This document shows positions 2,566 through 16,925 of a stretch of DNA of 45,899 nucleotides, piece after piece. The position numbers were made by a program, and so were the translations under genes. Position 1 is the first letter of the stretch; every line of letters starts with the position of its first letter. A model generated the notes under the pieces. That model saw nothing but the letters and a program-made list of their open reading frames with translations. It did no database searches and had not been told where the DNA came from. The stretch is from a virus, in IMG/VR virus record IMGVR_UViG_3300047510_000698, positions 1 to 45,899 of that record, one strand, 5' to 3'.

Positions 2566-2598
2566 ATACTACTGGGACACTTTGCACGTCCCCCCTTT
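2566..2598 (-). repeat. Dispersed stem-loop element, copy 1
   Basis: On the minus strand: AAAGGGGGGACG, variable TGC, AAAGTGTCCCAGTAGTAT. GGGAC pairs with GTCCC. It is followed by AAGACC and a 30-nt leader before the gene at 2363-2536. Confidence 0.85.
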
Positions 2599-2605
2599 TA
2601 GTAAC

Positions 2606-2818
2606 TCAGTCGCGGGGTGATGTACTCCAAGGCGCATAAATGCCTTCGATTTCACCAAACAAACCCGCAAGATACTTGGGGTCATTCTGAAACGATTTGG
2701 TGATAATCTTACCGTCTTCGATGAAGTTGTAGACGGTGTAATCCTTACGGGTTTCTGTCATCACCTGGTACACTTTACCAGTGTGGGGAGAAGTGTAGGA
2801 CGTGTCGGTTGCGCTCAT
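2606..2818 (-). CDS. Hypothetical protein, 70 aa
   Basis: Starts MSATDTSYTSPHTGKVYQVM; soluble, slightly acidic, no recognised domain. Its ATG is fused to the end of an element copy (2817-2849), with no conventional ribosome binding site between. The next element copy (2566-2598) lies 7 bp past its stop. Confidence 0.7.
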   Translation of the reverse strand: MSATDTSYTSPHTGKVYQVMTETRKDYTVYNFIEDGKIITKSFQNDPKYLAGLFGEIEGIYAPWSTSPRD

Positions 2819-2849
2819 ACTACTGGGACACTTTCAACGTCCCCCCTTT
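2817..2849 (-). repeat. Dispersed stem-loop element, copy 2
   Basis: AAAGGGGGGACG, variable TTG, AAAGTGTCCCAGTAGTAT, whose last AT are the first two bases of the ATG of gene 2606-2818. Stem GGGAC/GTCCC. It begins at the stop codon of gene 2849-3016. Confidence 0.85.
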
Positions 2850-3016
2850 CATTCAACAACCTGCAGACGTTCTATAAACTCCTCCAGATAGTCTGTCGGA
2901 TCGTGACCTAACTCTGCGATACGATTTAACTCATTTAAGATCGCACTCATTTGCTTCACATAAGGTACGCGCATTCTCTCTGTCGTACCCAGAAAAGTGT
3001 AATTCTTCGGTCTCAT
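2849..3016 (-). CDS. Hypothetical protein, 55 aa
   Basis: Starts MRPKNYTFLGTTERMRVPYV and continues with an acidic helix (LNELNRIAELGHDPTDYLEE). An internal ATG at 2948-2950 would give 33 aa, but the longer start is preferred because the extra residues read like protein and the ATG lies exactly at the end of a 15-bp inverted repeat (3017-3066). Function unknown. Confidence 0.65.
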   Translation of the reverse strand: MRPKNYTFLGTTERMRVPYVKQMSAILNELNRIAELGHDPTDYLEEFIERLQVVE

Positions 3017-3066
3017 AGTTTTGTCCCAAAATACCCCATAATATGTATAAGTTTTGGGACAAAACT
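3017..3066. repeat. 15-bp perfect inverted repeat before a start codon
   Basis: AGTTTTGTCCCAAAA (3017-3031) is the exact reverse complement of 3052-3066, with a 20-nt spacer. On the minus strand the right-hand end abuts the ATG of gene 2849-3016. It has no U-tract, so it is more likely a translational or operator element than a terminator. Confidence 0.85.
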
Positions 3067-3078
3067 AAAAGTGCGTTT

Positions 3079-3252
3079 CTACCACTTAGAAGGGCAATCG
3101 AGATCCTCAACGTATGCTTCCACACGCTCAGATGGTTCGAGTTTGAATAGCTTCTCCCAATCAATTTGATGAGGATCGAAATCACTCAGTACGTTCATTT
3201 CCAGAGTGATCCTATAACGCTGCTTCTGTGCCTGATGATACGCAACTGACAT
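3079..3252 (-). CDS. Hypothetical protein, 57 aa
   Basis: Starts MSVAYHQAQKQRYRITLEMN and ends DLDCPSKW. The ATG at 3250-3252 has a good ribosome binding site (AAGGAG, 3260-3265), one of the clearer ones in this area. It is the first gene behind the strong promoter at 3280-3308. Soluble; no known domain. Confidence 0.7.
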   Translation of the reverse strand: MSVAYHQAQKQRYRITLEMNVLSDFDPHQIDWEKLFKLEPSERVEAYVEDLDCPSKW

Positions 3253-3279
3253 AAGTACGCTCCTTTGAGTTATGGAATC

Positions 3280-3308
3280 ATTCTATAATACTCTGAGGTA
3301 GGTGTCAA
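3280..3308 (-). promoter_or_regulatory. Sigma70-type early promoter
   Basis: Minus-strand TTGACA (3303-3308), 17-bp spacer, TAGAAT (3280-3285), 28 bp upstream of the start of gene 3079-3252. This is the best consensus match in the left part of the window. Confidence 0.8.
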
Positions 3309-3319
3309 GTACCTGGAGA

Positions 3320-3327
3320 GTATTTAG
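3320..3327 (-). promoter_or_regulatory. Late-type promoter box CTAAATAC
   Basis: Minus-strand CTAAATAC, 12 bp upstream of the early promoter at 3280-3308, so gene 3079-3252 and those after it may be driven both early and late. Confidence 0.4.
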
Positions 3328-3383
3328 GGGCGCTCCGGGGGATTCTGCGCGGGGATTGTGGGGATTTTGTGACGTTGGGGGTC

Positions 3384-3412
3384 TAGACATTTTGGAGGAG
3401 TGCTGATATAAT
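3384..3412 (+). promoter_or_regulatory. Strong plus-strand promoter
   Basis: TAGACA (3384-3389), exact 17-bp spacer, TATAAT (3407-3412). The -35 overlaps the 8-bp palindrome GTCTAGAC (3381-3388). Nearly all genes here are on the other strand, so the transcript would be a short RNA running into the duplicated sequence at 3440-3501. Confidence 0.75.
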
Positions 3413-3439
3413 GCACGCAAAGATAACGACCCCCAGAGA

Positions 3440-3501
3440 CATTTAAATGACTATAAGTTACAAGGTCTGAGAGCATTTAAATGACTATAAGTTACAAGGT
3501 C
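3440..3501. repeat. 28-bp tandem direct repeat
   Basis: Two identical 28-base copies (3440-3467 and 3474-3501), period 34, each containing ATTTAAATGACTATAAGT and an ATG followed by the same six codons (MTISYKV). They sit about 30 bp downstream of the plus-strand promoter. Confidence 0.85.
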
Positions 3502-3512
3502 CAGACACACAA

Positions 3513-3581
3513 ATGACAAGAGAGATTGATCGAACGTTTATATTTAAATTAACATTTTTAATTGATTTAATTATAATTTAA
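3513..3581 (+). CDS. Possible 22-aa micro-ORF
   Basis: ATG at 3513 overlaps the stop of a preceding 11-codon ORF (3481-3516, MTISYKVQTHK) in the ATGA arrangement. It encodes MTREIDRTFIFKLTFLIDLI plus two residues, a hydrophobic peptide. It would be read from the plus-strand promoter at 3384-3412. It may equally be a non-coding RNA; no ribosome binding site is clear. Confidence 0.25.
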   Translation: MTREIDRTFIFKLTFLIDLIII

Positions 3582-3607
3582 CCACAATACATTTGATTTC
3601 TAAACAT

Positions 3608-3638
3608 AAAAAAAGAGAGGGATTACCAGTCCCTCTCT
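3608..3638 (-). terminator. Rho-independent terminator
   Basis: Perfect 9-bp stem AGAGAGGGA (3614-3622) with TCCCTCTCT (3630-3638), loop of 7, followed on the minus strand by a run of seven T. It ends the transcript of genes 3737-4294. Confidence 0.85.
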
Positions 3639-3736
3639 ATACACCCAACCACCTAACTTATTGGAAATTATCTATACTCTACGGAAGTCACTTTCTTTAC
3701 TTACTAGAGGCAAACTCCCTTCCTCTTTATCTTGAA

Positions 3737-3919
3737 TTAGTTAAAAAAGTGTGCTAAATCTGCGAGTTCTGATGCAATCTCTTCTACATTATCTTCAGTG
3801 AGTTTGTTGATGAGTTGTTGCACGTCTTCATCAGGTACATAGAACAAATCACCATTGATTTCACTTGCTAACTCTTCAGCACGGGAGAGACATTTGAGAA
3901 TCAGGGACATAGGCATCAT
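3737..3919 (-). CDS. Hypothetical acidic protein, up to 60 aa
   Basis: Helical, acidic protein (LINKLTEDNVEEIASELADL). Three in-frame ATGs (residues 1, 2, 4) all overlap the end of the next gene upstream by 35-44 bp. Last gene before the terminator at 3608-3638. No recognised domain. Confidence 0.6.
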   Translation of the reverse strand: MMPMSLILKCLSRAEELASEINGDLFYVPDEDVQQLINKLTEDNVEEIASELADLAHFFN

Positions 3920-4076
3920 CTAGAATTGATTGAAGTTTGTTAATGTACCGTTCTGCTTTTTGTTTGATCTTGTCTCTATCGTGTGGATTATCAACCAGGA
4001 ATTGTGTAAACTCAAAATCGAAAATCACATCACTACAAAGAAAACGAAGTTGAAGGATTTGAGATTCAGTCATCAT
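3876..4076 (-). CDS. Hypothetical protein, 66 aa
   Basis: Starts MMTESQILQLRFLCSDVIFD. Its start overlaps the stop of gene 4073-4294 (ATGA), indicating translational coupling. Amphipathic helices, soluble, function unknown. Confidence 0.6.
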   Translation of the reverse strand: MMTESQILQLRFLCSDVIFDFEFTQFLVDNPHDRDKIKQKAERYINKLQSILDDAYVPDSQMSLPC

Positions 4077-4294
4077 TTCAAGTGAGGAAAGATTTGAATT
4101 TGGAGGTTTAGTTGTTGAAGCAACTCACGAGCAAATATGATTTCACCATACTCAAATCCTGCATCAAAAGCATCATCATAACTACCACTTTCTGAAGGTG
4201 AGTAATCATCACCATACGCTTCATAACAATGCTTACTATGTGCGGTTTCTTTAAGTTTTAGAAGAAGGAATTGGAGTTTTTGAGTGTCAGTCAT
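4073..4294 (-). CDS. Hypothetical protein, 73 aa
   Basis: Starts MTDTQKLQFLLLKLKETAHS with a central acidic, serine/tyrosine-rich patch and a C-terminal helix. First gene of the 3-gene unit ended by the 3608-3638 terminator. It lies divergent from the HNH endonuclease gene, whose promoter region starts 18 bp away. A weak late-type box TTAAATAC (4332-4339) lies 38 bp upstream on the minus strand. Confidence 0.6.
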   Translation of the reverse strand: MTDTQKLQFLLLKLKETAHSKHCYEAYGDDYSPSESGSYDDAFDAGFEYGEIIFARELLQQLNLQIQIFPHLK

Positions 4295-4311
4295 TTGTGG
4301 AGATGTGGTAT

Positions 4312-4319
4312 AATAAATA
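4312..4319 (+). promoter_or_regulatory. Late promoter box AATAAATA
   Basis: Plus-strand TATAATAAATAC (4309-4320) combines a TATAAT-like box with the late box AATAAATA. It lies 20 bp upstream of the preferred HNH start at 4339, the same distance as in the fibre-type gene at 36722-38368. Confidence 0.65.
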
Positions 4320-4338
4320 CTACAAAGTTAGGTATTTA

Positions 4339-4836
4339 ATGATGAAAGAGCATCCTCTTTACAATAACATTTTAGTGTCGAAAGATGGGAGCATTTATAG
4401 TACAGGAAAGAACTACAAATCACCTCGCAAACTAAAAGAAAGTGTGGATGAAAGAGGTTATGCAAGAGTGAGAATACAAGTCGGGTTGTATAATCAAAAG
4501 TTGAGAGCAGTTCATAGATTAGTAGCAGAAACTTACTTACCTAATCCACATAATCTATCAGATGTTCACCATAGAGATGATAACCCAACAAACAACAGTT
4601 TAGATAATTTAGAGTGGGTAACTCATAAACAAAACTGTGAACTTTCAAGAGACAACATTGGTAGAAACAAAGCGGCAGAATGGAAGATTTTACACATAGA
4701 AACCAATGAAACTTTTGTGATAAAAAACCTTGCTAAATGGTGCGAAGAAAATAACTTGAATAGGTCAAATCTTCATAAGACATTAACAAAGGTAAATCAT
4801 CACAAAGGTTACAAGATTTTAGAAAAACTTAGTTGA
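4339..4836 (+). CDS. HNH homing endonuclease
   Basis: 165 aa from ATG 4339; an upstream ATG at 4297 would start before the late box at 4312-4319 and is not preferred. The N-terminus (about residues 4-50) resembles a NUMOD4-type segment with a DGSIYSTGKNYKSP turn. The HNH core follows with AVHRLVAETYLPNP, VHHRDDNPTNNSLDNLEWVT and a K-rich QNCE loop. The C-terminal 50 residues (FVIKNLAKWCEENNLNRSNL) look like a NUMOD1-type DNA-binding helix. It is free-standing, not in an intron, and is the only large plus-strand gene in the window. Its last 8 bp overlap the stop of the convergent gene 4829-5143, as expected for an element inserted between genes. Confidence 0.88.
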   Translation: MMKEHPLYNNILVSKDGSIYSTGKNYKSPRKLKESVDERGYARVRIQVGLYNQKLRAVHRLVAETYLPNPHNLSDVHHRDDNPTNNSLDNLEWVTHKQNCELSRDNIGRNKAAEWKILHIETNETFVIKNLAKWCEENNLNRSNLHKTLTKVNHHKGYKILEKLS

Positions 4837-5143
4837 GTTTCATTCCATTGTTGAAAGGAACTGGACCTCCTTCACAGTTAAGAAACCACTCACCTTTCTT
4901 CTGAAAGACATATTCAACTCCTGTACCGTGGGAAGAAAGAATAGCGTTAATTCTGCTTTTAGTTGTTGCAGTTTGATGTCCGCCATCGAACAGTTCCAGC
5001 CAAGTATCACCTACCATCGCAATCAGATTGCTATACAGATAGACGAAACTTACACCTTCAATGTTGATGACTTGAGTGTTGTCCTTTTTCCAATCAATCT
5101 CTTGGGAGATTGCGCGGTTCATTTGTGCTTCGATCTTACGCAT
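4829..5143 (-). CDS. Hypothetical protein, 104 aa
   Basis: Starts MRKIEAQMNRAISQEIDWKK and continues with a beta-rich domain (VINIEGVSFVYLYSNLIAMV, LELFDGG). Soluble; no recognised family. It follows an element copy with a 24-nt leader and overlaps the HNH gene tail by 8 bp. Confidence 0.65.
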   Translation of the reverse strand: MRKIEAQMNRAISQEIDWKKDNTQVINIEGVSFVYLYSNLIAMVGDTWLELFDGGHQTATTKSRINAILSSHGTGVEYVFQKKGEWFLNCEGGPVPFNNGMKLN

Positions 5144-5166
5144 TTTGTGGTTGGGGATTGTGATCT

Positions 5167-5199
5167 ATACTACTGGGACACTTTGGGCGTCCCCCCTTT
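5167..5199 (-). repeat. Dispersed stem-loop element, copy 3
   Basis: AAAGGGGGGACG, variable CCC, AAAGTGTCCCAGTAGTAT, then AGATC leading to the ATG at 5143. Stem GGGAC/GTCCC. Confidence 0.85.
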
Positions 5200-5202
5200 G
5201 AT

Positions 5203-5490
5203 TCAGTTACGAAATGCACCCAGAGAGTTAAACTTCGACCAGATGTTTTTCTCTGCGATACGCTTACCGTCAACTTGGAAAGTATAACGGAGTTGTCCTT
5301 TTACAGTCTTGGAAACTTTACAGGTGAGGCAAATCTCACCGTCACGATTACCATTCCAATCATACTTTGCGAAGTAGTGATGGCAAACTCCATCGAGGCA
5401 ATAGTCAACAACACCATTGCGTTGTTGATAGTTTTCCAGAGCAAGTTGCTCCGTGAGTTTGATGGAATCGAAGAGGTCGTTGGTTGTCAT
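5203..5490 (-). CDS. Hypothetical protein, 95 aa
   Basis: Starts MTTNDLFDSIKLTEQLALEN. A Cys/His cluster in the middle (DYCLDGVCHHYFAKYDWNG, then ICLTCKV) could bind a metal. The C-terminal half is beta-rich. Its ATG is fused to an element copy (5489-5521). Confidence 0.65.
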   Translation of the reverse strand: MTTNDLFDSIKLTEQLALENYQQRNGVVDYCLDGVCHHYFAKYDWNGNRDGEICLTCKVSKTVKGQLRYTFQVDGKRIAEKNIWSKFNSLGAFRN

Positions 5491-5521
5491 ACTACTAGGA
5501 CACTTTGCACGTCCCCCCTTT
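5489..5521 (-). repeat. Dispersed stem-loop element, copy 4
   Basis: AAAGGGGGGACG, variable TGC, AAAGTGTCCTAGTAGTAT; the final AT begin the ATG of gene 5203-5490. It starts at the stop of gene 5521-5661. Confidence 0.85.
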
Positions 5522-5941: not shown

Positions 5942-5944
5942 AAA

Positions 5945-6115
5945 TCAGTCAACGACAGAGTAACAAGCAACAGAGGAAGGAATACCAGAGAGTGCTAACG
6001 AACCATTGCGATCATCAGCATAATCTTGAGCGTCTTCTTCAGAGTAGAAAGGTCCAATATACTCGGGAGAATCGAGAGCATTGGAATCGAAACGGACGGT
6101 GAAAGTGTTAGTCAT
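5945..6115 (-). CDS. Hypothetical acidic protein, 56 aa
   Basis: Starts MTNTFTVRFDSNALDSPEYI and continues with an acidic YSEEDAQDYADDRNGS segment. Start fused to an element copy (6114-6146). It leads a chain with 5807-5941, 5658-5810 and 5521-5661. Confidence 0.65.
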   Translation of the reverse strand: MTNTFTVRFDSNALDSPEYIGPFYSEEDAQDYADDRNGSLALSGIPSSVACYSVVD

Positions 6116-6146
6116 ACTACTAGGACACTTTGGGCGTCCCCCCTTT
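6114..6146 (-). repeat. Dispersed stem-loop element, copy 5
   Basis: AAAGGGGGGACG, variable CCC, AAAGTGTCCTAGTAGTAT; its last AT begin the ATG of gene 5945-6115. Confidence 0.85.
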
Positions 6147-6149
6147 CTA

Positions 6150-6451: not shown

Positions 6452-6457
6452 TTCAGT

Positions 6458-6643: not shown

Positions 6644-6874
6644 TCAGGCAGGAAGAACACAGAAAGTACCACACCAACCGCGAACCCATTCTAGAGTTTC
6701 ACGGTAAGATGTGCGAGGGTTAGACATTTCCATCGTCTTACCATTGCGGGGATTGTGTGCTACAGCGACGAAAGAATAACCTTTGTTCTCATCACCAGAC
6801 TGTTCGATCCACATTTGGTTGACTTTACCTTCCTTCCAATTTGTATGGTAGGAGTAGATTTCAGAAACGATCAT
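6644..6874 (-). CDS. Hypothetical protein, 76 aa
   Basis: Starts MIVSEIYSYHTNWKEGKVNQ; contains SNPRTSYRETLEWVRGWC near the C-terminus. First gene after element copy 6892-6924, with a 17-nt leader. Unknown function. Confidence 0.65.
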   Translation of the reverse strand: MIVSEIYSYHTNWKEGKVNQMWIEQSGDENKGYSFVAVAHNPRNGKTMEMSNPRTSYRETLEWVRGWCGTFCVLPA

Positions 6875-6891
6875 CGGTTGAGTGTGTGCTT

Positions 6892-6924
6892 ATACTACTA
6901 GGACACTTTGCGCGTCCCCCCTTT
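6892..6924 (-). repeat. Dispersed stem-loop element, copy 6
   Basis: AAAGGGGGGACG, variable CGC, AAAGTGTCCTAGTAGTAT, then AAGCAC and the start of gene 6644-6874. Confidence 0.85.
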
Positions 6925-6932
6925 GCATCACT

Positions 6933-8143: not shown

Positions 8144-8338
8144 TCAGAGATTGTTCCAGAGAGCATTAACAACTACGTCAGCAGCACCTGCTACATTATC
8201 ACGCACAATCAGTCGCAGAGTTTCTGCACCTTGCGGATGTTTGTGCATTTCGCGGATATTATCTGCAGTGCGAGGATCATTAGCAGCATCCACAATCATT
8301 TCAGCGATTTGGTTAATCATTTTATCGTTGGTCCTCAT
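8144..8338 (-). CDS. Hypothetical protein, 64 aa
   Basis: Start at the ATG 8336-8338 (MRTNDKMINQIAEMIVDAAN). The longer frame to 8413 would translate the dispersed element and is rejected. Helical; the sequence ADNIREMHKHPQGAETLRL may form a helix-turn-helix, but this is not certain. Confidence 0.65.
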   Translation of the reverse strand: MRTNDKMINQIAEMIVDAANDPRTADNIREMHKHPQGAETLRLIVRDNVAGAADVVVNALWNNL

Positions 8339-8368
8339 ACTACTAGGACACTTTGAGCGTCCCCCCTT
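8337..8368 (-). repeat. Dispersed stem-loop element, copy 7
   Basis: AAGGGGGGACG, variable CTC, AAAGTGTCCTAGTAGTAT; its last AT begin the ATG of gene 8144-8338. It overlaps the stop of gene 8367-9263. Confidence 0.85.
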
Positions 8369-9263
8369 ACCAACTCTTTGCAAGATTGAAGTTAGCACGG
8401 GAGAAACATTCACGATTTACCAACTTAAACATTCCAAACTCATTCGTCATAACGTATCCTTCAGCATCAATACGATTGTATCCGATATAAGCAGCAGGAC
8501 CATCATTGCGGCAGAGGAACAAGCAATCATCTTTGATAGACTTCACCAGCGACCACAAACGGATGAGGTTAGGGTCACAATCAAAGTCATTCACATTATC
8601 TACAGTAATCTGCTCTCCTGCACGAATAAAATCATTCAATTTCTTGGTAATCTTTGCTGCTTCCTTGTTAGAAACAAACTCACACATCGTAGACATTTGG
8701 CGGGCAAACGCACAAACTTCTTTTACATCAGCGAACGATTCTTGCTGATGAACGATGTAAGCATCAGGTTTCACAAACTTGCAGTAATGTGTATCGGTGA
8801 TGATGAACTTCATCGGATACGCTACTGCATCACGCAAATCATTCTCTGCGATGTAGACAGTATGAGGAGCAAGAATAATCTCCTCATTCACCACATCAGG
8901 AAACTTGTAGGTGATAGTATTTGGTTTGTACTCATCACTACCACCAAACCCGATAAAGTCTGCTTGAATGATAGCATTTACACGCGGCAGATAGTCAAAG
9001 CAAGCGTGAAGAATGTTTGCTACATTACCTTCGTGATTTGCATCAATATCTTGATGCGATTCGTTGATTTTGATTTTAACTTTATTGAAGACACTTTTGG
9101 TCCCCACGAAGAAGTTACCAGTCGCAGGATTGATACCAAAAACTACTGCAGGAGCGCCATCAATCTTTACAGACAGATCGCCAGCAGTTACAAACCAATC
9201 CAGCACAGACAGATCGCCCGTGAGAATAGAATCTTCAGGATGTTGCAGGTGAGTGTTCTTCAT
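8367..9263 (-). CDS. Nucleotidyltransferase/ligase-like protein (KxDG motif)
   Basis: 298 aa. The motifs of covalent nucleotidyltransferases (DNA/RNA ligases, capping enzymes) appear in order: motif I KIDG with Lys33, followed by the family-typical APAVVFG and FFVGTKSVFN; a motif III-like ADFIGF (101-106); motif IV-like AEGYV (267-271); motif V-like FK (279-280). This matches phage proteins annotated as DUF6267 (from memory). If active it would form a Lys33-AMP intermediate and act on nucleic acid ends, but the C-terminal OB domain of classic ligases is absent. It is first in its transcript, with its start fused to an element copy and a terminator immediately upstream. Confidence 0.65.
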   Translation of the reverse strand: MKNTHLQHPEDSILTGDLSVLDWFVTAGDLSVKIDGAPAVVFGINPATGNFFVGTKSVFNKVKIKINESHQDIDANHEGNVANILHACFDYLPRVNAIIQADFIGFGGSDEYKPNTITYKFPDVVNEEIILAPHTVYIAENDLRDAVAYPMKFIITDTHYCKFVKPDAYIVHQQESFADVKEVCAFARQMSTMCEFVSNKEAAKITKKLNDFIRAGEQITVDNVNDFDCDPNLIRLWSLVKSIKDDCLFLCRNDGPAAYIGYNRIDAEGYVMTNEFGMFKLVNRECFSRANFNLAKSW

Positions 9264-9294
9264 ACTACTAGGACACTTTGGGCGTCCCCCCTTT
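9262..9294 (-). repeat. Dispersed stem-loop element, copy 8
   Basis: AAAGGGGGGACG, variable CCC, AAAGTGTCCTAGTAGTAT; the last AT begin the ATG of gene 8367-9263. A rho-independent terminator (9303-9328) lies 8 bp upstream of this copy. Confidence 0.85.
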
Positions 9295-9338: not shown

Positions 9339-9593
9339 TCAATTAGTGGCGTATTTGGAGCGGATTTGCTGATATTGATCGAGAACATAATCCATTGCGT
9401 TCTTCACATAAGGAAAAACAGTTTGAGTAACTTTACTCACATCTTCACGAAGTTTGTTGACTTCATACTGATGGATTTGCCAGCGAACTTTAATGTCTTG
9501 CAGATATTGCTGGCGAGTGATGAGAACCTCAGGAACTTTCACTTCGTTAGCAACAACTTCAACATTTGCAGTTTGCTTGCGAGCGCGAGGCAT
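9339..9593 (-). CDS. Hypothetical helical protein, 84 aa
   Basis: Start set at the ATG 9591-9593 (MPRARKQTANVEVVANEVKV). The longer frame to 9704 would translate an element copy and part of the methyltransferase gene. A basic N-terminus precedes a long amphipathic helix (WQIHQYEVNKLREDVSKVTQ) that may form a coiled coil. Last gene before the 9303-9328 terminator. Confidence 0.6.
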   Translation of the reverse strand: MPRARKQTANVEVVANEVKVPEVLITRQQYLQDIKVRWQIHQYEVNKLREDVSKVTQTVFPYVKNAMDYVLDQYQQIRSKYATN

Positions 9594-9609: not shown

Positions 9610-9642
9610 ACACTACTAGGACACTTTGGGAGTCCCCCCTTT
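9610..9642 (-). repeat. Dispersed stem-loop element, copy 9
   Basis: AAAGGGGGGACT, CCC, AAAGTGTCCTAGTAGTGT. It lies between the stop of the methyltransferase gene and the start of gene 9339-9593. Confidence 0.8.
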
Positions 9643-10720
9643 AGTTCAACGCAGACAATAAAGGATTTTGATATTGCTTGAGAGAATCTGGAAGGTGCTT
9701 CCAAATAGTTTTCTGTATGATGTCGAATCGAAGATTAAATGCACCATTTGTAGACGCAAATGCTACATCAGACCAGTTAATTGATTGCATCACATTATCA
9801 ATCACATCTTTGTCTGCAAGTGCTACAATTCCATAACCTCTACGATGTGGTAGATTCTCAAAGTCATCATAGACTTTTACACTCTCTTCACCGAAACACG
9901 TTGATGGCAAATAATAGTCACAAGAGTACAGATGTTGTTTGTTTCGTGTGCTTCCTGGTGTGCCACCATCAGAGAGAGAATAGAGTTTGATGATGTTAGT
10001 CAGATCAACAACTTCCTCCTCGATTTTGTAGTCCTTCGCCCAGATCTGAAAGACTACATTTACGGTCACAGTTTTGCCATCAGGATAGTGAAATGAAGAA
10101 TCCACAACTTCAGTGTGAATCAGATTCATACCTTTCACTCTTGATTTACAACTACCTTTGCCGTTGCTATCAAACAACTGCGGTAGAATGAAGCATACGA
10201 AATCAGAGAACTGTGCGGCATGATTGATGAACTTAAGGGCTAAATGTCCTCTGAGTCCAAATGGTGGATTGCCGATACAAATGTTCTTTTGAGTATCAGG
10301 TTTCCACCTTAAAAAGTCTTGTTTCTCTACACCATCACATTGAGGTTCGATGTCAACACCAACACGCTGATAGATGGGTAGAATGTTATAGAAACTACCA
10401 TCACCTGCTGATGGTTCAATAAAGGTGTATTCACGCAAATCTACACCAAGATCACCTAGAATCTTGAGAGTTTGATTGTAACAATACTCAGCAGTATTTG
10501 GATCAGTAAAGAACTGATCCTTTTGCTTTTCAGTAAAGTTAGAGTAAAGAACTGGCACATCTGCTAACCTACACAAATCAAAATAGTATTGTGGAGGAAC
10601 TTCTTTCTTCTCAATCCAACGGTTCACTGTACCTTTATGCAGGTACAGTTCTTGACACACAGTATCAATACCAAACTTTTGATAGATCGGAAGAAAGAAG
10701 TCGTAGATGTTTTTCATCAA
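9641..10720 (-). CDS. DNA adenine N6-methyltransferase
   Basis: 359 aa. The N-terminus (about residues 14-40, FGIDTVCQELYLHKGTVNRW) looks like a helix-turn-helix. The Rossmann MTase core follows with an AdoMet-binding motif I IEPSAGDGSF (101-110) and the catalytic amino-methyltransferase motif NPPF (151-154). The preceding segment QFFTDPNTAEYC is typical for N6A MTases of type I/IIG style. It likely methylates adenine in phage DNA. It overlaps by 4 bp the preceding nuclease-like gene, forming a restriction-modification-like pair. A solitary protective methylase is the alternative. Confidence 0.85.
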   Translation of the reverse strand: MMKNIYDFFLPIYQKFGIDTVCQELYLHKGTVNRWIEKKEVPPQYYFDLCRLADVPVLYSNFTEKQKDQFFTDPNTAEYCYNQTLKILGDLGVDLREYTFIEPSAGDGSFYNILPIYQRVGVDIEPQCDGVEKQDFLRWKPDTQKNICIGNPPFGLRGHLALKFINHAAQFSDFVCFILPQLFDSNGKGSCKSRVKGMNLIHTEVVDSSFHYPDGKTVTVNVVFQIWAKDYKIEEEVVDLTNIIKLYSLSDGGTPGSTRNKQHLYSCDYYLPSTCFGEESVKVYDDFENLPHRRGYGIVALADKDVIDNVMQSINWSDVAFASTNGAFNLRFDIIQKTIWKHLPDSLKQYQNPLLSALN

Positions 10721-11319
10721 CCAAAGTGCTTAACAAGGTGAGAGACAACCCCAGCATCGTCAGGGTTATTTACGTCATAACAGAAAGTATAACCTGCTTT
10801 GATAGCATTTGCAACAGTAACACGGGAGAAATCAAACTTCCACTTATCCTCTTGAGATTCACGGAGAGTTGCTTTCTTTCCAAGAATAGGATCTTTCTCA
10901 TTCTGAAAGAGTTTCTCCATGTTAGCAGGAGTCAGGACAGTAATGTAGATCTTATCATAGTCTACATCAACAAACGTCAATTTGTCCCAGACAGATTTAG
11001 CATAGATGTTCTCATGTTGCCAGTTGGCACTCTTAGCACACGAAAATGCAGTCTTTACTTCATTCTTGAGTTTCTTAATCAGATTGACGAGGATGTCATA
11101 AGTGCCACCATCTTCAGGGCGGGTGTTACAATCACCATCCCACTTAGATTCAATCTTAGCAACCTCAGTAATGATACGGAAGAGGAACTTTTCACCCCAA
11201 CGACCACGCTCATCATTAGTGATAAGAGTCAGAGGTTCAAATGGAGAACCTTTCCATTCTTGATTGCTATTTTCAACTGCTTCCTCAATAGTTTCATTGA
11301 GAATAGAAAGAACTGTCAT
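10717..11319 (-). CDS. Putative PD-(D/E)xK endonuclease
   Basis: 200 aa. Residues 38-48 (RGRWGEKFLFR, Glu43) form the conserved N-terminal helix of many restriction-type nucleases. Asp75 (GTYDILV) and Glu87-x-Lys89 (KLKNEVKTAF) are spaced as in the PD-(D/E)xK catalytic core, followed by beta strands (TFVDVDYDKIYITVLT, 115-130). It is the first gene after element copy 11331-11365 and overlaps the adenine methyltransferase by 4 bp, as in type II restriction-modification modules. Target unknown; it could cut host or competitor DNA. The identification rests on motif and context only. Confidence 0.6.
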   Translation of the reverse strand: MTVLSILNETIEEAVENSNQEWKGSPFEPLTLITNDERGRWGEKFLFRIITEVAKIESKWDGDCNTRPEDGGTYDILVNLIKKLKNEVKTAFSCAKSANWQHENIYAKSVWDKLTFVDVDYDKIYITVLTPANMEKLFQNEKDPILGKKATLRESQEDKWKFDFSRVTVANAIKAGYTFCYDVNNPDDAGVVSHLVKHFG

Positions 11320-11330: not shown

Positions 11331-11365
11331 ATACACTATTGGAACATTTTAGGCGTCCCCCCTTT
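11331..11365 (-). repeat. Dispersed stem-loop element, copy 10 (diverged)
   Basis: AAAGGGGGGACG, CCT, AAAATGTTCCAATAGTGTAT, then a 12-nt leader to the ATG of the nuclease-like gene. The stem is weakened and partly rebuilt. Confidence 0.7.
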
Positions 11366-11661: not shown

Positions 11662-12903
11662 TCACCTGCGAACCACACTGATGGCAGGTTCCCCCTTCTG
11701 AAAAATAGTATCAACAACAGACTGAACTGCGCGAGCAGTGCTGATACCAACCTTAGAGTACACAGGCACACAAACCAGACCAAACGATTTGCTATACTGA
11801 GTGAGGTTGCCAGGTTCAATACGTCCATCGCGCATACCTTTCGCATCATCGTGATGCAGACGGATGCAACGTCCGATGGTCTGACTGATACCAATGAAGT
11901 CCATATTACGGAGGAAGAGTACCGCTTCCAGACCGCTGACGTTGATACCCTCAGCGAGGATGCTATGGTGTAGAACAACAAACTTTTTGTCGTTATCCTT
12001 ACCCCAGGCAGATAGGGTGTCAAAGAATACCTCACGGTTCACTTTGCGACCATCAATCACAGCACCAGTCTTGGCAGTGATATACATCCAAGAGTAACCG
12101 CGATTCTCTAGTTCGGAGCAGAAATCAGTTTCAGACACCAGAGCAACGATTTGCTTGGTTGCCTTAGAACAGATCAGGATCTTACCGACGCTGTTCTCAT
12201 CAATCGTTTCCAGCAGATTCTCAGCGTCCCGATCATAGTTGGTCTGCTTACCAGTTACCATCGGCAGTTGCTTGACGATAACTTTAGGAGGCACAATGTA
12301 TCCACCTTCAACTAGCTCAGGAGCAGGAACTTTGCAGATCACTTGACCGTAGACTGCAGAATCATTCATTCCTGGTTTACCCACAGCAAGCGAATGTTTG
12401 GGGGTAGCAGTGAAGAAGTACGCACGTTTTGCGTTAGCAGAGAAGTGCTCTGTAGCAGGGAAAAAGTGACGCTGAACGCTGTTATGTGCTTCGTCAAAGT
12501 AGATCGTATCCACATCAATCTCTGCGACTTGAAGACGCGACAGAGAGTTGTAGGTGGTTACAATCAGGCGATGATTGTCGGCATTAGCATTAACCCAGTT
12601 GTAAATCTCACGCGGACGAGTAGAAGATTCGTGATGCGTCTCACCACTATGAACGTGGAAGACTTTAGCGTTAGTGATAAACTCCAGAAACTCAGCAGAC
12701 AGTTGCTCTGCAAGCAGAATACGCGGAGCGACTACAACAATGGTCTGAGGAGTTTCAGACTGGAACTCACGCAGAGCATCATAGATCATCTTGAGAGTCT
12801 TTCCACCACCAGTAGGAACAATGATCTGACCTTTGTTATGCTGTTGCATAGCAGCAACACCACGTTCCTGATGAGGGCGAAGTTGAATGTTCATAAGTTG
12901 CAT
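11662..12903 (-). CDS. SF2 DNA helicase (DEAH-box, ResIII-like)
   Basis: 413 aa. Walker A PTGGGKT (30-36), motif Ia VVAPRILLAEQL (58-69), DEAH box FDEAH (136-140), motif III FFTATP (163-168), and a motif VI-like QTIGRCIR with an arginine finger near residue 345. The fold matches the ResIII/UvsW-like group of superfamily 2 helicases, which act in recombination, replication restart or restriction. The first residues LRPHQERGV carry the Q-motif-like start. It is preceded by an element copy and followed by a terminator, so it is a single-gene transcript. Start set at the ATG 12901-12903; a second in-frame Met is at residue 4. Confidence 0.88.
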   Translation of the reverse strand: MQLMNIQLRPHQERGVAAMQQHNKGQIIVPTGGGKTLKMIYDALREFQSETPQTIVVVAPRILLAEQLSAEFLEFITNAKVFHVHSGETHHESSTRPREIYNWVNANADNHRLIVTTYNSLSRLQVAEIDVDTIYFDEAHNSVQRHFFPATEHFSANAKRAYFFTATPKHSLAVGKPGMNDSAVYGQVICKVPAPELVEGGYIVPPKVIVKQLPMVTGKQTNYDRDAENLLETIDENSVGKILICSKATKQIVALVSETDFCSELENRGYSWMYITAKTGAVIDGRKVNREVFFDTLSAWGKDNDKKFVVLHHSILAEGINVSGLEAVLFLRNMDFIGISQTIGRCIRLHHDDAKGMRDGRIEPGNLTQYSKSFGLVCVPVYSKVGISTARAVQSVVDTIFQKGEPAISVVRR

Positions 12904-12907
12904 TATC

Positions 12908-12939
12908 TAATACTAGGACAGTTTAGGCGTCCCCCCTTT
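12908..12939 (-). repeat. Dispersed stem-loop element, copy 11 (diverged)
   Basis: AAAGGGGGGACG, CCT, AAACTGTCCTAGTATTA, 5 bp before the helicase ATG. It begins at the stop of gene 12939-13253. Confidence 0.8.
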
Positions 12940-13253: not shown

Positions 13254-13277
13254 AATAAAGTTTCAAGTAAGTGTTGA

Positions 13278-13285
13278 TTATTTAG
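13278..13285 (-). promoter_or_regulatory. Late-type promoter box CTAAATAA
   Basis: Minus-strand CTAAATAA, 25 bp upstream of the membrane protein start at 13253. It overlaps the end of gene 13278-13868. Confidence 0.5.
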
Positions 13286-13868
13286 AAGTGTATTTGTGCT
13301 TGAGTTCTTTCTCTGATTTCTTACCAGTTGATTGTAGAACAAGATCTCTCAGTTTTCTTTCACCTTTCTTGTAAAGTGCTTTTCTTTCTTGTGTAGAAAG
13401 TCCTGATGCTTTTTGTGGTTTGTAATCAGGATGTGCTTGTGCTTCTGGTTTCTTAGTTGAAAGAAGTTTAGATGCAGTTTTTGCTACATCTTTTGCCTTT
13501 GGTTTTGCTGCTGGTGCTTCTCCACCACCTTTCTTTGCTGCTGCTCTTGCTTTTGCTGCTGCTCTACGTTCTGCCTTTACCTTTTCAGCATAAGATTGCT
13601 TTACTTCAGCACTTCCACGCTCTTTTTCTGGTTGTTGAACTCTTGTGGATGCTTGTCTTTGAGATCCAATATCTTTGCGTGGTTTGTAATCAACGGGTTC
13701 CATCTTACCACCGCCGACTGCTTTCATACGACGCCTTTCAGGAGCAGATTTCTTACGTTCTGCACCAATTCTTCCACCTTCTCCAGTTTTACGGATTTGA
13801 GAAGAACTCATTACACTAGCATCATAAGATGCTTCAGCAATCAAAACAAATTCCTGAAAGGTTCTCAT
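13278..13868 (-). CDS. Candidate internal head protein (basic, CTS-like N-terminus)
   Basis: 196 aa. The N-terminus MRTFQEFVLIAEA closely resembles the T4 capsid-targeting sequence MKTYQEFIAEA of internal proteins IPI-IPIII (from memory). The rest is highly basic and disordered, rich in Lys, Arg, Ala and Gly (AERRAAAKARAAAKKGG, RRRMKAVGGG), as expected for a protein packaged with DNA and injected into the host. A late-type box (13892-13899) lies 24 bp upstream. It could instead be a scaffold or DNA-condensing protein. No enzymatic motif is visible. Confidence 0.55.
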   Translation of the reverse strand: MRTFQEFVLIAEASYDASVMSSSQIRKTGEGGRIGAERKKSAPERRRMKAVGGGKMEPVDYKPRKDIGSQRQASTRVQQPEKERGSAEVKQSYAEKVKAERRAAAKARAAAKKGGGEAPAAKPKAKDVAKTASKLLSTKKPEAQAHPDYKPQKASGLSTQERKALYKKGERKLRDLVLQSTGKKSEKELKHKYTSK

Positions 13869-13891
13869 TGGTATCTAAACAGTCTTTTTTA

Positions 13892-13899
13892 TTATTTAG
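13892..13899 (-). promoter_or_regulatory. Late-type promoter box CTAAATAA
   Basis: Minus-strand CTAAATAA, 24 bp upstream of the candidate internal head protein start at 13868. Confidence 0.55.
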
Positions 13900-14108: not shown

Positions 14109-14110
14109 AA

Positions 14111-14248
14111 TCAGAAGTCGTAGGTAGCGTTAATGTATTCAGCGAAGGATTTATCATCAAACTCTTCGTCGATAAAGATGTCGTCTTCTTCGACAAAGTT
14201 GAAGTAACCTTCCTCTTCGATTTGATAGTTGTCGTTGAAAGGATCCAT
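14111..14248 (-). CDS. Small acidic protein, 45 aa
   Basis: Starts MDPFNDNYQIEEEGYFNFVE; about 40% Asp/Glu, no basic residues except one Lys. Such acidic proteins in phages are sometimes DNA mimics or inhibitors of host enzymes, but no such role is shown here. Behind element copy 14263-14294. Confidence 0.6.
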   Translation of the reverse strand: MDPFNDNYQIEEEGYFNFVEEDDIFIDEEFDDKSFAEYINATYDF

Positions 14249-14262
14249 CTTAATGGGTGCTT

Positions 14263-14294
14263 ACATTATTAGAACACTTTGGGCGTCCCCCTTT
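14263..14294 (-). repeat. Dispersed stem-loop element, copy 12 (diverged)
   Basis: AAAGGGGGACG, CCC, AAAGTGTTCTAATAATGT, then a leader to the ATG at 14248. The stem pairs GGGAC with GTTCT through one or two G-U pairs. Confidence 0.75.
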
Positions 14295-14298
14295 CTTA

Positions 14299-14502: not shown

Positions 14503-14517
14503 TTGTCTAGTATGTTT

Positions 14518-14733: not shown

Positions 14734-14909
14734 TTAGTTGATGCTTTCTGTATTGCAATTTGTTTATAATATTCTCTGAAGACTAACAATCGTGGAGCAT
14801 TGCGACTAGGATGTGCGGGAAGTTGTATAACAACATAATGGTCGCATACAAAATCAATCACACCACACATTTCTTTATAGATGACTGCAGTACCTTCAGA
14901 GAAAATCAT
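14730..14909 (-). CDS. Hypothetical protein, 59 aa
   Basis: Starts MIFSEGTAVIYKEMCGVIDF; beta-rich in the first half, ending in a helix (REYYKQIAIQKAST). ATGA overlaps both neighbours. Unknown. Confidence 0.65.
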   Translation of the reverse strand: MIFSEGTAVIYKEMCGVIDFVCDHYVVIQLPAHPSRNAPRLLVFREYYKQIAIQKASTK

Positions 14910-15205
14910 ACAAATGCGGACATAAGAGGATTAAGGTTAAGAGGCATAGCCGTGTAGTCTCGCGTATCTTTGAAATTCACAACTTTACCAACTGTACTAC
15001 TATTTACAGGACTATAGAACTCACACTTTTTGTAGTTGTAAAATCCCCAGATGGTCCTGGTAGGTTTCCCCATATTGTAATCAAACTTGCGGTTGCAGCA
15101 CAACCAAATAGAAAAGATACCACGTTTGAACTCTTCAACTTCATAACTATAACCTTCTGGTGCTTTGTGTGTAAACTGAGGAATGAGATCAACTGAGAGT
15201 TTCAT
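14906..15205 (-). CDS. Hypothetical protein, 99 aa
   Basis: Start at the ATG 15203-15205 (MKLSVDLIPQFTHKAPEGYS); resembles small phage proteins with an alternating beta pattern and an APEGYSYE-type motif also seen in gene 7783-8136 (QDAPDGYFYE), so a shared fold is possible. Unknown. Confidence 0.65.
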   Translation of the reverse strand: MKLSVDLIPQFTHKAPEGYSYEVEEFKRGIFSIWLCCNRKFDYNMGKPTRTIWGFYNYKKCEFYSPVNSSTVGKVVNFKDTRDYTAMPLNLNPLMSAFV

Positions 15206-15366
15206 CAACAATCGTAGTATTTGTCGTATGAGAGCAGTTTAATCTGTTCTTGGAGTTTTAGGATCTCCTTCTGCTGTTCTGTAATCTTCTGTTGCAAATC
15301 TTCGATGCGGTCTTGGTATTGTTGCTTCAAATCAAATGCAAGACGGTTGATTTCAGGATTACTCAT
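15205..15366 (-). CDS. Coiled-coil protein, 53 aa
   Basis: Starts MSNPEINRLAFDLKQQYQDR; about 40 residues of heptad-like charged helix (LQQKITEQQKEILKLQEQIK). Overlaps both neighbours by 1 bp. Confidence 0.65.
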   Translation of the reverse strand: MSNPEINRLAFDLKQQYQDRIEDLQQKITEQQKEILKLQEQIKLLSYDKYYDC

Positions 15367-15596
15367 CAGGTCGTAAATGCTTCAAGAATACCAGATTCAT
15401 ATTCATCAACAAGAGCAAACTTCTGGGAGTTCACTACTCGTTCCATAATCCGATCAGTATAACGATCATCAAACTGCTTTTCTACAATAAGAAGTTCAAA
15501 TGCCTCAGTATCAGATTCAGCAATCAGATTGATAAGACCACCACCTTCAGATGCTGGAAAAGGAACCCAGTAATCAACGATATAAAGATACTTCAT
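15366..15596 (-). CDS. Hypothetical acidic protein, 76 aa
   Basis: Starts MKYLYIVDYWVPFPASEGGG; a small alpha/beta protein, soluble. Leads a chain of overlapping genes. A motif V-Y-I-x-DYW is of unknown meaning. Confidence 0.65.
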   Translation of the reverse strand: MKYLYIVDYWVPFPASEGGGLINLIAESDTEAFELLIVEKQFDDRYTDRIMERVVNSQKFALVDEYESGILEAFTT

Positions 15597-15644
15597 TTGT
15601 CTTTGTAAATTACTCCTTTAGTTTAATCGTTAGTTTGGTTTAAG

Positions 15645-16064
15645 TCAATAGCAGGTAGCATTAGCAGCACCAGCACCAAGAACTGCACCTAGAGGAATAG
15701 CCCAACTCCAAGCGTCTTTTTTAGATACTGCTGCACCAATACCACCACCAAGCAATCCACCAAGAGTTGTTCTTGCGGGAGAACAATAACCCCTACCATA
15801 TCCAGGTTGTGCTATCGGAGCAGCAACTGGAGATTGATACACATTTCCACCATTTGGACGATAATACGTTCCAGTTCCACATTGAACGTTATATCGTTGT
15901 GTATTCACATTTCCTTGAACGTAGTTCCCATAAGCATCATAATAACCAGGAGCATAGTTCTCCTGATAGTTAGTGCAAACTGAATAAATGTTTGTTTGCT
16001 GTGCTTTGACTGGAAGTGATGTAGCAAGTAAAGAGAATGTAATTCCCCAAAGTAATTGTTTCAT
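15645..16064 (-). CDS. Secreted glycine-zipper protein, 139 aa
   Basis: Start at the ATG 16062-16064, giving a clear signal peptide (MKQLLWGITFSLLATSLPVK, cleavage near VKA-QQ). The longer frame to 16100 lacks one. The mature part is Tyr/Asn/Gln-rich, followed by a glycine-zipper membrane segment (GGLLGGGIGAAVSKK, GAVLGAGAANA). The glycine zipper resembles outer-membrane or phage envelope-associated proteins. Four Cys may form disulfides. Probably an exported, late or host-envelope protein. Confidence 0.65.
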   Translation of the reverse strand: MKQLLWGITFSLLATSLPVKAQQTNIYSVCTNYQENYAPGYYDAYGNYVQGNVNTQRYNVQCGTGTYYRPNGGNVYQSPVAAPIAQPGYGRGYCSPARTTLGGLLGGGIGAAVSKKDAWSWAIPLGAVLGAGAANATCY

Positions 16065-16201
16065 TAGTCTAAGAGAAACTCCTCTAAAATGTAGTCGCAA
16101 GTGACCTCATATTTAGATGCAAGTTCTTCAATATAAGAACAAAAATCTTCAGCAGTCCTATCAATCTGAAGATCTTTGCGGTCTTTGTTATAATCAATCA
16201 A
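16064..16201 (-). CDS. Hypothetical protein with TTG start, 45 aa
   Basis: The frame has no ATG near its start. A near-perfect ribosome binding site (AAGGAGG) lies 8 bp upstream of TTG at 16199-16201, giving MIDYNKDRKDLQIDRTAED. The TTG sits in the end of gene 16194-16325. Acidic, helical (CSYIEELASKYEV). Confidence 0.55.
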   Translation of the reverse strand: MIDYNKDRKDLQIDRTAEDFCSYIEELASKYEVTCDYILEEFLLD

Positions 16202-16325
16202 AAGTTTTTCCTCCTTTAATTTGTTCTTCTTCTCTAGGTCTCATCACCTTGAAATAATAGGTGAGAAGTGATGAGACCACAGCAATCATAGCACAGTAGA
16301 TTGCGATTGCAAGTGATAAACTCAT
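16194..16325 (-). CDS. Small membrane protein, 43 aa
   Basis: MSLSLAIAIYCAMIAVVSSL: one hydrophobic helix, then a basic tail (KVMRPREEEQIKGGK). Its last codons hold the strong ribosome binding site of the next gene. Confidence 0.6.
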   Translation of the reverse strand: MSLSLAIAIYCAMIAVVSSLLTYYFKVMRPREEEQIKGGKTFD

Positions 16326-16480
16326 CGTATCTGACTGCTAATTGGTTGCTTAATGTTCTCGATTGCTTGACGACGATAGTATTCTTTATACATCACATCA
16401 TCACGTTGAACTAGAAAGACATTCCACCCAATCACAGCAGAGAAAGCAATCAATCCAGCAGCAAGATACTTTGGTTTCAT
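16322..16480 (-). CDS. Small membrane protein, 52 aa
   Basis: MKPKYLAAGLIAFSAVIGWN: basic start, one membrane helix (YLAAGLIAFSAVIGWNVFLV), then a charged tail. Could also be a signal anchor. Overlaps the next start by 4 bp. Confidence 0.6.
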   Translation of the reverse strand: MKPKYLAAGLIAFSAVIGWNVFLVQRDDVMYKEYYRRQAIENIKQPISSQIR

Positions 16481-16482
16481 AA

Positions 16483-16878
16483 TCAAACGTGAAGAGCAGC
16501 AGAGGGGATTTCAACGATTTTAGGAGTTTCGTGAAGTTCGTAGCACACCCATTCACCTTTCAAAGTGTAGAGATAAGCATACTCTTCAGCATCACCAACA
16601 TACTCAATCAGGTTAGCATCAAGGCGAGGAGGGCAATTCTGACCACGATAGGAGTAATAGTTAGGTCCATAAGATCCATCAGCACTCAAATCCCAACGTT
16701 CATCAGTCCAAGCACAGGACATATCACCACCATCAATCAGTTCGGCAGCAAGTTCTTTGCTATTGTAGTGCGTCTTCAGGATGCGACCCAACCATTCGGG
16801 ATAACCATCCCAGTGGTGGTATGCAGAGAGAACAGAACCATCAGCGAGTTCAATACCGATGCGTGAGCGGGTTGCCAT
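16483..16878 (-). CDS. Phage protein of the MATRSRIGIE family, 131 aa
   Basis: Starts MATRSRIGIELADGSVLSAY, followed by HHWDGYPEWLGRIL. This pattern belongs to a widespread phage family of unknown function (from memory). Tyr/Trp-rich, soluble. Behind element copy 16893-16925 with a 14-nt leader. Confidence 0.75.
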   Translation of the reverse strand: MATRSRIGIELADGSVLSAYHHWDGYPEWLGRILKTHYNSKELAAELIDGGDMSCAWTDERWDLSADGSYGPNYYSYRGQNCPPRLDANLIEYVGDAEEYAYLYTLKGEWVCYELHETPKIVEIPSAALHV

Positions 16879-16892
16879 TGAATGTTGTGCTT

Positions 16893-16925
16893 ACATTACT
16901 AGGGCACTTTAGGCGTCCCCCCTTT
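16893..16925 (-). repeat. Dispersed stem-loop element, copy 13 (diverged)
   Basis: AAAGGGGGGACG, CCT, AAAGTGCCCTAGTAATGT, then AAGCAC and the ATG at 16878. GGG/CCC of the stem remain. Confidence 0.75.

Follow-up and report, generated by a model that had tools for sequence, protein, structure and literature searches.

MotA of phage T4 is made after infection, and VP16 of herpesvirus is a transcription protein carried in the virion for the first genes. Short repeats upstream of many small genes, mobile or lineage-specific, are known as the PeSL cassettes of T4-type phages and as the SAS and stoperators of mycobacteriophages. An early regulatory element of T4-like cyanophages (Syn9 and P-TIM40) was reportedly described by Doron et al. 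(2016). Reports cited in a passage of PMC5780444 describe marine T4-like cyanophages without motA and/or asiA. Here we describe a 33-base element repeated 13 times in DNA of 45,899 nucleotides from the virus record IMGVR_UViG_3300047510_000698 (this whole stretch is referred to as the window), together with a phage protein, X, that is its candidate reader. The heart of the finding is the box within this element and its partner protein, not the stem.

In the proposed model, the element would be a three-part promoter consisting of a regulator box (positions 4-15), the AAAGTGTCC core (positions 16-24) and a start region (TAGTRT followed by RAGCAC). The box would be read by X through its C-terminal helix. 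X would be made late, its N-terminus would direct it into the capsid, and it would reach the cell together with the DNA, so that the gene cluster under the control of the element could be activated ahead of the synthesis of any new phage protein. The box and the C-terminus of X would change together between lineages. As a whole, the model of a packaged X reading the box of a three-part promoter is probably correct, because of the near-fixed core with its swapped box, the exclusivity of the promoter types, the co-occurrence of X and the element, the match between box and X C-terminus (held-out loci included), the TAAATA sequence before gene X and the N-terminus of X. We infer from sequence that X is a DNA-binding activator and not a repressor, that virions contain it, that the genes are early and where transcription starts.

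Conserved core and lineage-specific box

A scan of viral contigs with GGGGGACGNNNAAAGTGTCC yielded 89 stretches, many of them with multiple copies. Two panels independent of the G-rich half were collected, one consisting of loci selected by the DUF6267 protein (best 80 of 517 relatives, one being redundant) and the other of at least 120 stretches chosen on the right half alone. The combined set contained 830 non-redundant right halves in 202 loci, a few of which are chance matches; exact duplicates were removed, and the window keeps two of its 13 copies in this set since three other stretches (L093, L095 and L096; L numbers denote our loci) repeat its copies. The right half was almost invariant, AAAGTGTCC-NNN-TAGTRT, or in fuller form AAAGTGTCC-Y-W-R-TAGT-R-T (830 matches); this motif misses P-TIM68, RN05-S and S-B05, which carry variant right halves. 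The left half (GGGGGGACG in the window) was near-uniform inside a contig and replaced wholesale from contig to contig, the AAAGGGGGGACG half being variable in relatives. At least eight distinct box classes were found, including GGGGGGACG, GGGGGGTCG, TTACTCACC or TAGCTCACC, GTTAGTAACC, TGGGCCC, GGGGCCTT, TTGGATCC, CTGNNGCC and others.

In panels that exclude the loci found earlier by the GGGGGACG scan (83 contigs, 458 copies), the identity of the box was 0.890 within contigs versus 0.481 between contigs, with a permutation maximum of 0.518. The identity of the flanks within and between contigs was 0.36 and 0.29 upstream, and 0.33 and 0.31 downstream. Uniformity within contigs and difference between them is what one would expect where a site is recognised by a trans-acting factor differing from phage to phage, and the pattern fits a promoter with a lineage-specific regulator box. 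The earlier note on this DNA had listed a binding site for a phage regulator among its options, and this one is supported, with gene X as the candidate regulator.

Among contigs with at least four copies, 21 of 618 copies differed strongly from the box of their own contig. In about 15 of these the box is a coherent one from a different class; the others resemble matches that are shifted or due to chance. Two genomes of the CTCACC type (L012 and L080) have one GGGGGGACG copy each before the same gene (aacactccaaactggaaacac...), which suggests that this gene moved together with its own element. The foreign-class boxes and this shared copy lend partial support to a mobile early regulatory cassette, another option raised previously.

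Two promoter systems at orthologous genes

In the complete genomes of S-SM2 and SynMITS9220M01, 12 box-bearing matches each were found, all on the gene strand and only within about 42.7-58.5 kb and 36.3-50.0 kb, respectively. This region is a small-gene cluster between the tail-fibre genes and the gp25 baseplate gene. The element was absent in the scanned stretches of Syn9 (1-70,000), P-SSM2, S-SKS1, S-SRM01 and Bellamy, for which a looser scan gave weak matches of 12-13/16; in these stretches a TGTGnCA...TGnCACA palindrome is located upstream of the -10. Of the 79 protein-selected loci, 25 carried the element only, 48 the palindrome only, 6 neither and 0 both, and a palindrome-bearing promoter was present in 48 of the 54 comparable element-less loci. 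This mutual exclusion indicates that, at orthologous genes, one promoter system takes the place of the other. Among all other loci, four had at least one element and one palindrome. No such palindrome was found in the window or in the S-SM2 and SynMITS9220M01 stretches (L098 and L099). The form TGTGnCAGT-N-GTGnCACA was seen upstream of -35/-10 sequences in many of the loci L123-L178, in Syn9 (L184) and in P-SSM2 (L180).

Gene X and the match of its C-terminus with the box

The following two features of the window concern X.
13278..13868, minus strand: gene X, 196 amino acids, very basic, with a capsid-targeting-like N-terminus MRTFQEFVLIAEA; predicted packaged reader of the box
13893..13898, minus strand: TAAATA, late-promoter-like, 30 nucleotides (nt) upstream of gene X, as counted from the upstream sequence

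Two screens were used for the identification of X. Open reading frames (ORFs) of S-SM2 common to SynMITS9220M01 and not found in Syn9 or palindrome-type segments gave at least 222 candidates, which by eye were mostly antisense noise. In the other screen, protein families of element-bearing contigs were ranked by divergence against box distance; six of the 86 families stood above X (8-19 members, partial correlation 0.34-0.95 versus 0.32 for X). X was chosen where the two screens agreed and because its family, with 84 members, far exceeded the other high-ranking ones in size, and was then tested separately. The GC321 'transcriptional regulator' was inspected at the sequence level in S-SM2, SynMITS9220M01 and Syn9.

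X was found in 10 of 50,697 GenBank phage records, namely S-SM2 (two records), SynMITS9220M01, P-TIM68 (two records), RN05-S, RB11-B, S-B05, AG-345-O18 and AG-345-E15. The element or a recognisable variant was present in S-SM2, SynMITS9220M01, P-TIM68, RN05-S, S-B05 and AG-345-O18, and was not seen in the AG-345-E15 stretch. Among loci selected by DUF6267 with at least 4.8 kb upstream, X was present in 7/7 element loci and in 0/22 palindrome loci.

The relationship between X and the box was analysed for 81 members (3240 pairs), after proteins shorter than 150 amino acids (3 of 84) had been dropped. The last 60 residues of X were correlated with the box (r 0.63, partial 0.62; 0 of 5000 permutations, maximum 0.14), and the corresponding values for the N-terminus were 0.165 and -0.04. 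The box identity shared with the nearest C-terminus was 0.91, compared with 0.78 for the nearest N-terminus and 0.49 for a random partner; when near C-termini were excluded, the nearest N-terminus shared 0.55 of the box. Close N-termini with different C-termini accompany different boxes, as in L071 and L233, where a near-identical X N-terminus goes with a different C-terminus and a different box. Each of several C-terminal types was found with its own box, ERKALYKKGER with GGGGGGACG, ERDxARNKEK with CTCACC, ERMxQQRKGE with GTTAGTAACC, EKKxMVRAGK with TGGGCCC and ERLKVTRxGE with TTGGATC. The residue after the conserved E[RK] accounts for 0.97 of the entropy at box position 7, a figure inflated by relatedness; by eye, the base at this position is C when the residue is Asp, and G when it is Lys, Met or Leu. 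X ranked at the top of the 42 families tested (C-terminus 0.63, N-terminus 0.11), followed by two families with 0.61 and 0.43 (n=15) and with 0.56 and 0.57 (n=19).

Held-out loci were then fetched on the X protein alone (best 80 of 231 and best 80 of 120). These gave 140 new loci with an X ORF, of which 28 near-duplicates were dropped; among the remaining 112 independent loci, 95 carried the element (72 distinct), 12 a variant right half and 2 the element with a new box. The nearest training C-terminus gave at least 8 of 10 box bases in 60/72 and the nearest N-terminus in 36/72, with a mean box identity of 0.865 and 0.665, respectively, versus 0.439 at random. The prediction from the C-terminal neighbour was correct in 18 of the 30 loci for which the N-terminal neighbour pointed to another box. 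P-TIM68, RN05-S, S-B05 and AG-345-O18, all outside the correlation set, show by eye a C-terminus of the type that their box would predict. A new box class, AAGCCGGCC(C/T)TCT, was observed in L356 and L366 together with a new X C-terminus, SREERRQIRRQGE.

On balance, we lean toward X being a sequence-specific transcription factor carried in the virion, in which a C-terminal recognition module of about 45 residues can be swapped; it would serve many mutually distinct promoter dialects, each matched by a short helix. The data also hint at a readable protein-DNA code exchanged by phages through recombination. In an AlphaFold2 model of X, a C-terminal helix at about residues 159-181 was predicted with confidence, with a predicted local distance difference test score (pLDDT) of about 90. 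A Foldseek search with this model gave one match, with an E-value of 7, and no known DNA-binding fold was recognised in X by the Pfam, PHROG, PDB and fold searches; the claim of DNA binding is therefore drawn from co-variation.

Predicted packaging and late expression of X

The N-terminus of X resembles that of T4 IPIII, which begins with MKTYQEFIAEA in the T4 record. According to PMC9026906, IPIII needs no more than its first 10 residues to be incorporated into the head, residues 4 and 7 serving in targeting and residues 8 and 10 in processing. A targeting pattern that combines a hydrophobic side chain at residue 4, F7 and a cleavage-site E around residue 10 was found in 78 of 80 X proteins versus 23 of 3017 other ORFs; the pattern was devised after X and IPIII had been seen. 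The spacing to the cleavage-site E varies (E12 in the window X), and the net charge of X ranges from +20 to +36. Each of the 67 distinct X genes for which upstream sequence was available has TAAATA 23-37 nt ahead of its ATG, against a background of 3.2% of random windows and 202/2970 other ORFs, and the element itself was upstream of X in only 1 of 67. As described in PMC9026906 and PMC3012670, T4 Alt, once ejected into the host, acts on the RNA polymerase there, so that a packaged transcription helper has precedent in T4. In the palindrome-type phage S-SRM01, two very basic proteins with capsid-targeting-like N-termini, MKTFQEFQESAAIARGAL... and MKTFQQFQESAAIARGAL..., were noticed (L182, 16474 and 17301).

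Copies of the element in the window

The window record is of the linear class and probably a fragment. Its closest relatives by DNA are Synechococcus myoviruses such as SynMITS9220M01 and S-SCSM1, and those of its DUF6267 protein are from S-SRM01 and S-SM2. All 13 copies, within 2566-16925, are on the minus strand; with up to 3 mismatches 11 copies were detected in the window versus 0 in 100 shuffles, confirming what the earlier note had seen by inspection, a roughly 33-bp element just upstream of genes. An ORF of at least 38 codons begins 0-31 nt downstream of each copy (13/13), as measured from position 32. In five copies the last two bases are the start of an ATG (flush copies, at 2818, 5490, 6115, 8338 and 9263), just as had been described; the other 8 lack an ATG at the element end. 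A weaker consensus, RAGCAC, extends the element on its 3' side. Neither an Rfam match nor a tRNA was found by the respective searches. The copies, all on the minus strand, are as follows.
2566..2598, minus strand: copy 1, box GGGGGGACG; ORF 2363-2536 begins 31 nt past position 32
2817..2849, minus strand: copy 2, ATG flush; ORF 2606-2818
5167..5199, minus strand: copy 3; ORF 4829-5143
5489..5521, minus strand: copy 4, ATG flush; ORF 5203-5490
6114..6146, minus strand: copy 5, ATG flush; ORF 5945-6115
6892..6924, minus strand: copy 6; ORF 6644-6874
8337..8369, minus strand: copy 7, ATG flush; ORF 8144-8338, with another in-frame Met at codon 7
9262..9294, minus strand: copy 8, ATG flush; DUF6267 gene 8367-9263, terminator-like sequence preceding
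9610..9642, minus strand: copy 9; ORF 9339-9593
11333..11365, minus strand: copy 10, diverged; ORF 10717-11319
12907..12939, minus strand: copy 11; DNA helicase ORF 11662-12903
14263..14295, minus strand: copy 12, diverged; ORF 14111-14248
16893..16925, minus strand: copy 13; ORF 16483-16878

The sequence preceding copy 8, AACTCAATGAGTTCCCTTTTTTT, fits a short terminator, as had been proposed for this place. A single right-half-like match with 2 mismatches was noted at 30956-30973 on the plus strand, which is not the strand of the genes; it follows a hairpin-like sequence, and a box of the window's class is absent there. Two other repeats were observed in the window, a perfect 28-nt direct repeat, CATTTAAATGACTATAAGTTACAAGGTC, at 3440-3467 and 3474-3501 (34 nt apart), and a 27-nt repeat at 1475-1501 and 1639-1665, 85% alike with the core TTCCGGGAATTTTTTAT.

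Start site of transcription

The earlier note had considered an ordinary promoter hard to reconcile with a -10-like TAGTAT overlapping the ATG; the objection was right and raised the question of the start site. Among flush ATGs with enough sequence, 308 of 336 begin an open frame of at least 45 codons, by which a chance origin of the flush ATG as a by-product of the promoter was rejected. For non-flush copies, openness was about the same in the corresponding frame (148) and in the +2 frame (127). The flush genes belong to 46 families, 31 of which mostly have a second in-frame Met at codons 3-12 with a peak at codon 5; in the other 15, including that of the DUF6267 gene, most members are without one. 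The proteins of flush genes, unrelated to each other, often begin with M(S/N/T)(T/N)T because the 3' end of the element supplies their first codons. For non-flush genes, 25 of 413 start codons were within 14 nt of position 32, the peak being at 17-18.

In DUF6267 upstream regions scored as element-less, TANNNT ended exactly 6 nt before the ATG in 20 of 57, compared with at most 2 of 57 at any other spacing of 2-15 nt, and most of the remaining regions show by eye CATACT or AATACT at that spot. This arrangement is the predicted layout of a leaderless mRNA. In palindrome-type cyanophages, a -10-like hexamer often ends exactly 6 nt before the DUF6267 ATG. Position 32 of the element is almost always a purine. 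A start at position 32 would account for both flush and non-flush genes, while a start near 38-40 would account for the spacing, not for the flush-only genes. Transcription thus probably starts at or near position 32, giving a leaderless mRNA when the ATG is located there. In the contig-weighted profile (positions -4 to 65), no -35 TTGACA with a spacing of about 17 bp was detected.

The GGAC/GTCC stem

By eye, the GGAC/GTCC pairing described in the earlier note is possible in 12 of the 13 window copies, two of them via a G-U pair; in the copy at 16893-16925 an A-U pair of the stem is broken. When five window copies were folded, two were better than most shuffles (z -1.8 and -2.0), and the other three were unremarkable (z -1.0, -0.8 and 0.0). 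The stem could be formed by 192/209 GGGGGGACG copies and 53/62 GGGGCCTT copies, with a mean minimum free energy (MFE) of -10.3 and -8.4, respectively, versus -4.3 and -4.4 for shuffled letters. It was possible in 5/102 CTGNNGCC copies, in 13/64 other copies, and in none of the 160 CTCACC, 119 TGGGCCC, 51 TTAGTAACC, 32 GGGGGGTCG and 31 TTGGATC copies. The right arm is near-constant and the left arm varies without compensation, indicating that the stem is not the shared function, and the hairpin was rejected as a conserved function since these five box classes cannot form it. The pairing thus holds within the window and is not conserved across the box classes of relatives, but the link of the copies to gene starts does extend to related phages. 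Whole lineages without G-run or stem still keep the right half, the gene position and the ATG, contrary to a general function in which a hairpin brings GGGGG near the ATG.

Alternative explanations

A plain host sigma-70 promoter, with TAGTRT or TATAGT as its -10, a start near 38-40 and the box as an accessory site for another factor, is unlikely, though it deserves serious attention. The presence of TANNNT, the spacing of non-flush start codons (only 25/413 within 14 nt of position 32, peak 17-18) and the second Met prevailing in 31 of 46 flush families are in its favour, but a start at 38-40 would delete the ATG of the other 15 families, the element-less loci show the leaderless-type TANNNT (20/57), and the profile is without a -35 TTGACA. 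The element may instead be a promoter and X just an internal head protein, DNA-condensing or anti-restriction, with the C-terminus and the box both tracking lineage. X is basic like the T4 internal proteins, the contigs have common ancestry, the N-terminus is slightly correlated with the box (0.165), and two smaller families also correlate; we nevertheless regard this explanation as improbable, given that the N-terminus no longer follows the box when the C-terminus is taken into account (partial -0.04), that L071 and L233 differ in C-terminus and box behind a near-identical N-terminus, and that the C-terminal neighbour was right in 18/30 loci where the N-terminal one predicted another box. It is still harder to see the box as an operator for a repressor. 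Mycobacteriophage cluster A stoperators reportedly occur in many one-directional copies, as does this element, but the box lies at a fixed distance from a promoter-like core, the phages are lytic and T4-like, and the proposed reader would already be there at entry. A translation signal, in which the hairpin places a distant, Shine-Dalgarno-like AAAGGGG 7 nt from the ATG, is very improbable. A comparable hairpin reportedly brings the Shine-Dalgarno sequence close to the ATG of T4 gene 25, most GGGGGGACG and GGGGCCTT copies can form the stem with an MFE below that of shuffled letters, and flush ATGs are in frame (308/336); this function is contradicted in general by the classes that form no stem (CTCACC, TGGGCCC, TTAGTAACC, GGGGGGTCG and TTGGATC, with 5/102 in CTGNNGCC) and by the 8/13 window copies without ATG at that place, and the hairpin may have an additional role in particular classes.

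Several observations weigh against the model of a packaged X that reads the box. The window X belongs to no recognised Pfam or PHROG family and has no match among PDB sequences or folds; single members (1-3 of 58) reach six unrelated Pfam models at E-values of 0.011-0.09 only, and most of the structural model is of low confidence (mean pLDDT 71.5, predicted template modelling score 0.35). None of the 5000 permutations (maximum 0.13) equalled the small correlation of the N-terminus with the box, and, as close relatives have everything in common, 0.78 of the box is already matched by the nearest N-terminus. Different boxes were found despite close C-termini in 8 of 146 pairs (L026 or L218 is a partner in each of the 8), and AG-345-O18 is one box base off contigs with nearly identical X. 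Among the held-out loci, the box was missed in 12/72, several of which have a new box class or an X whose C-terminal end differs, and no repeated element was seen in 3/112 (L408, L409 and L440), L408 and L409 having one and two loose right-half matches, respectively. TAAATA was absent from the 70 nt before X in RN05-S, S-B05 and AG-345-E15. Finally, the contigs are related, so the counts are not independent events.

Comparison with known systems

A packaged regulator with its own promoter box, if true, would explain how the first genes are switched on in one group of T4-like cyanophages, would be directly testable with the cultured isolates S-SM2, P-TIM68 and SynMITS9220M01, and would provide many naturally paired sets of regulator and promoter. 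The rapid turnover of the box suggests that promoter identity is under pressure from competition between phages; this would be a new theme. Among the open-access titles listed in searches on cyanophage promoters and early genes, T4 packaged proteins and packaged transcription factors, none describes the pairing of box and X.

We know of no T4 Alt or internal protein that reads promoter boxes. T4 Alt and IPI-III share with X a basic character, an MKTYQEFIAEA-like N-terminal peptide, packaging and injection, as described in PMC9026906 and PMC3012670; they differ in activity, Alt being an ADP-ribosyltransferase and IPI an anti-restriction protein. The regulatory element of Doron et al. (2016) reportedly also lies in front of genes presumed to be early, in marine T4-like cyanophages that have no MotA/AsiA. 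In Syn9, however, the present element was absent from 1-70,000 at the threshold used (1-50,000 at a looser one), and the TGTGnCA...TGnCACA palindrome is located upstream of a TATTCT -10 instead. This palindrome is, as we would guess, the element described for Syn9.

The T4 middle promoters (MotA box, MotA/AsiA) resemble the present one in that a phage protein reads a box upstream of the -10. In the hairpin ribosome site of the T4 gene 25 type, the stem is located between the Shine-Dalgarno sequence and the ATG; the stem is not conserved in this element. The virion RNA polymerase of phage N4 is also a virion-carried transcription protein that starts the first genes, according to the abstract of PMC4496689, but X has only about 200 residues and matches no polymerase or other family. 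The PeSL, SAS and stoperator repeats are similarly short cassettes upstream of many small genes; in contrast to them, no stem-loop is common to the box classes here, and the identity of the box is tied to the C-terminus of one protein. The proposed system would thus belong to two known kinds, packaged head proteins aiding the start of phage transcription and promoter boxes read by phage factors.

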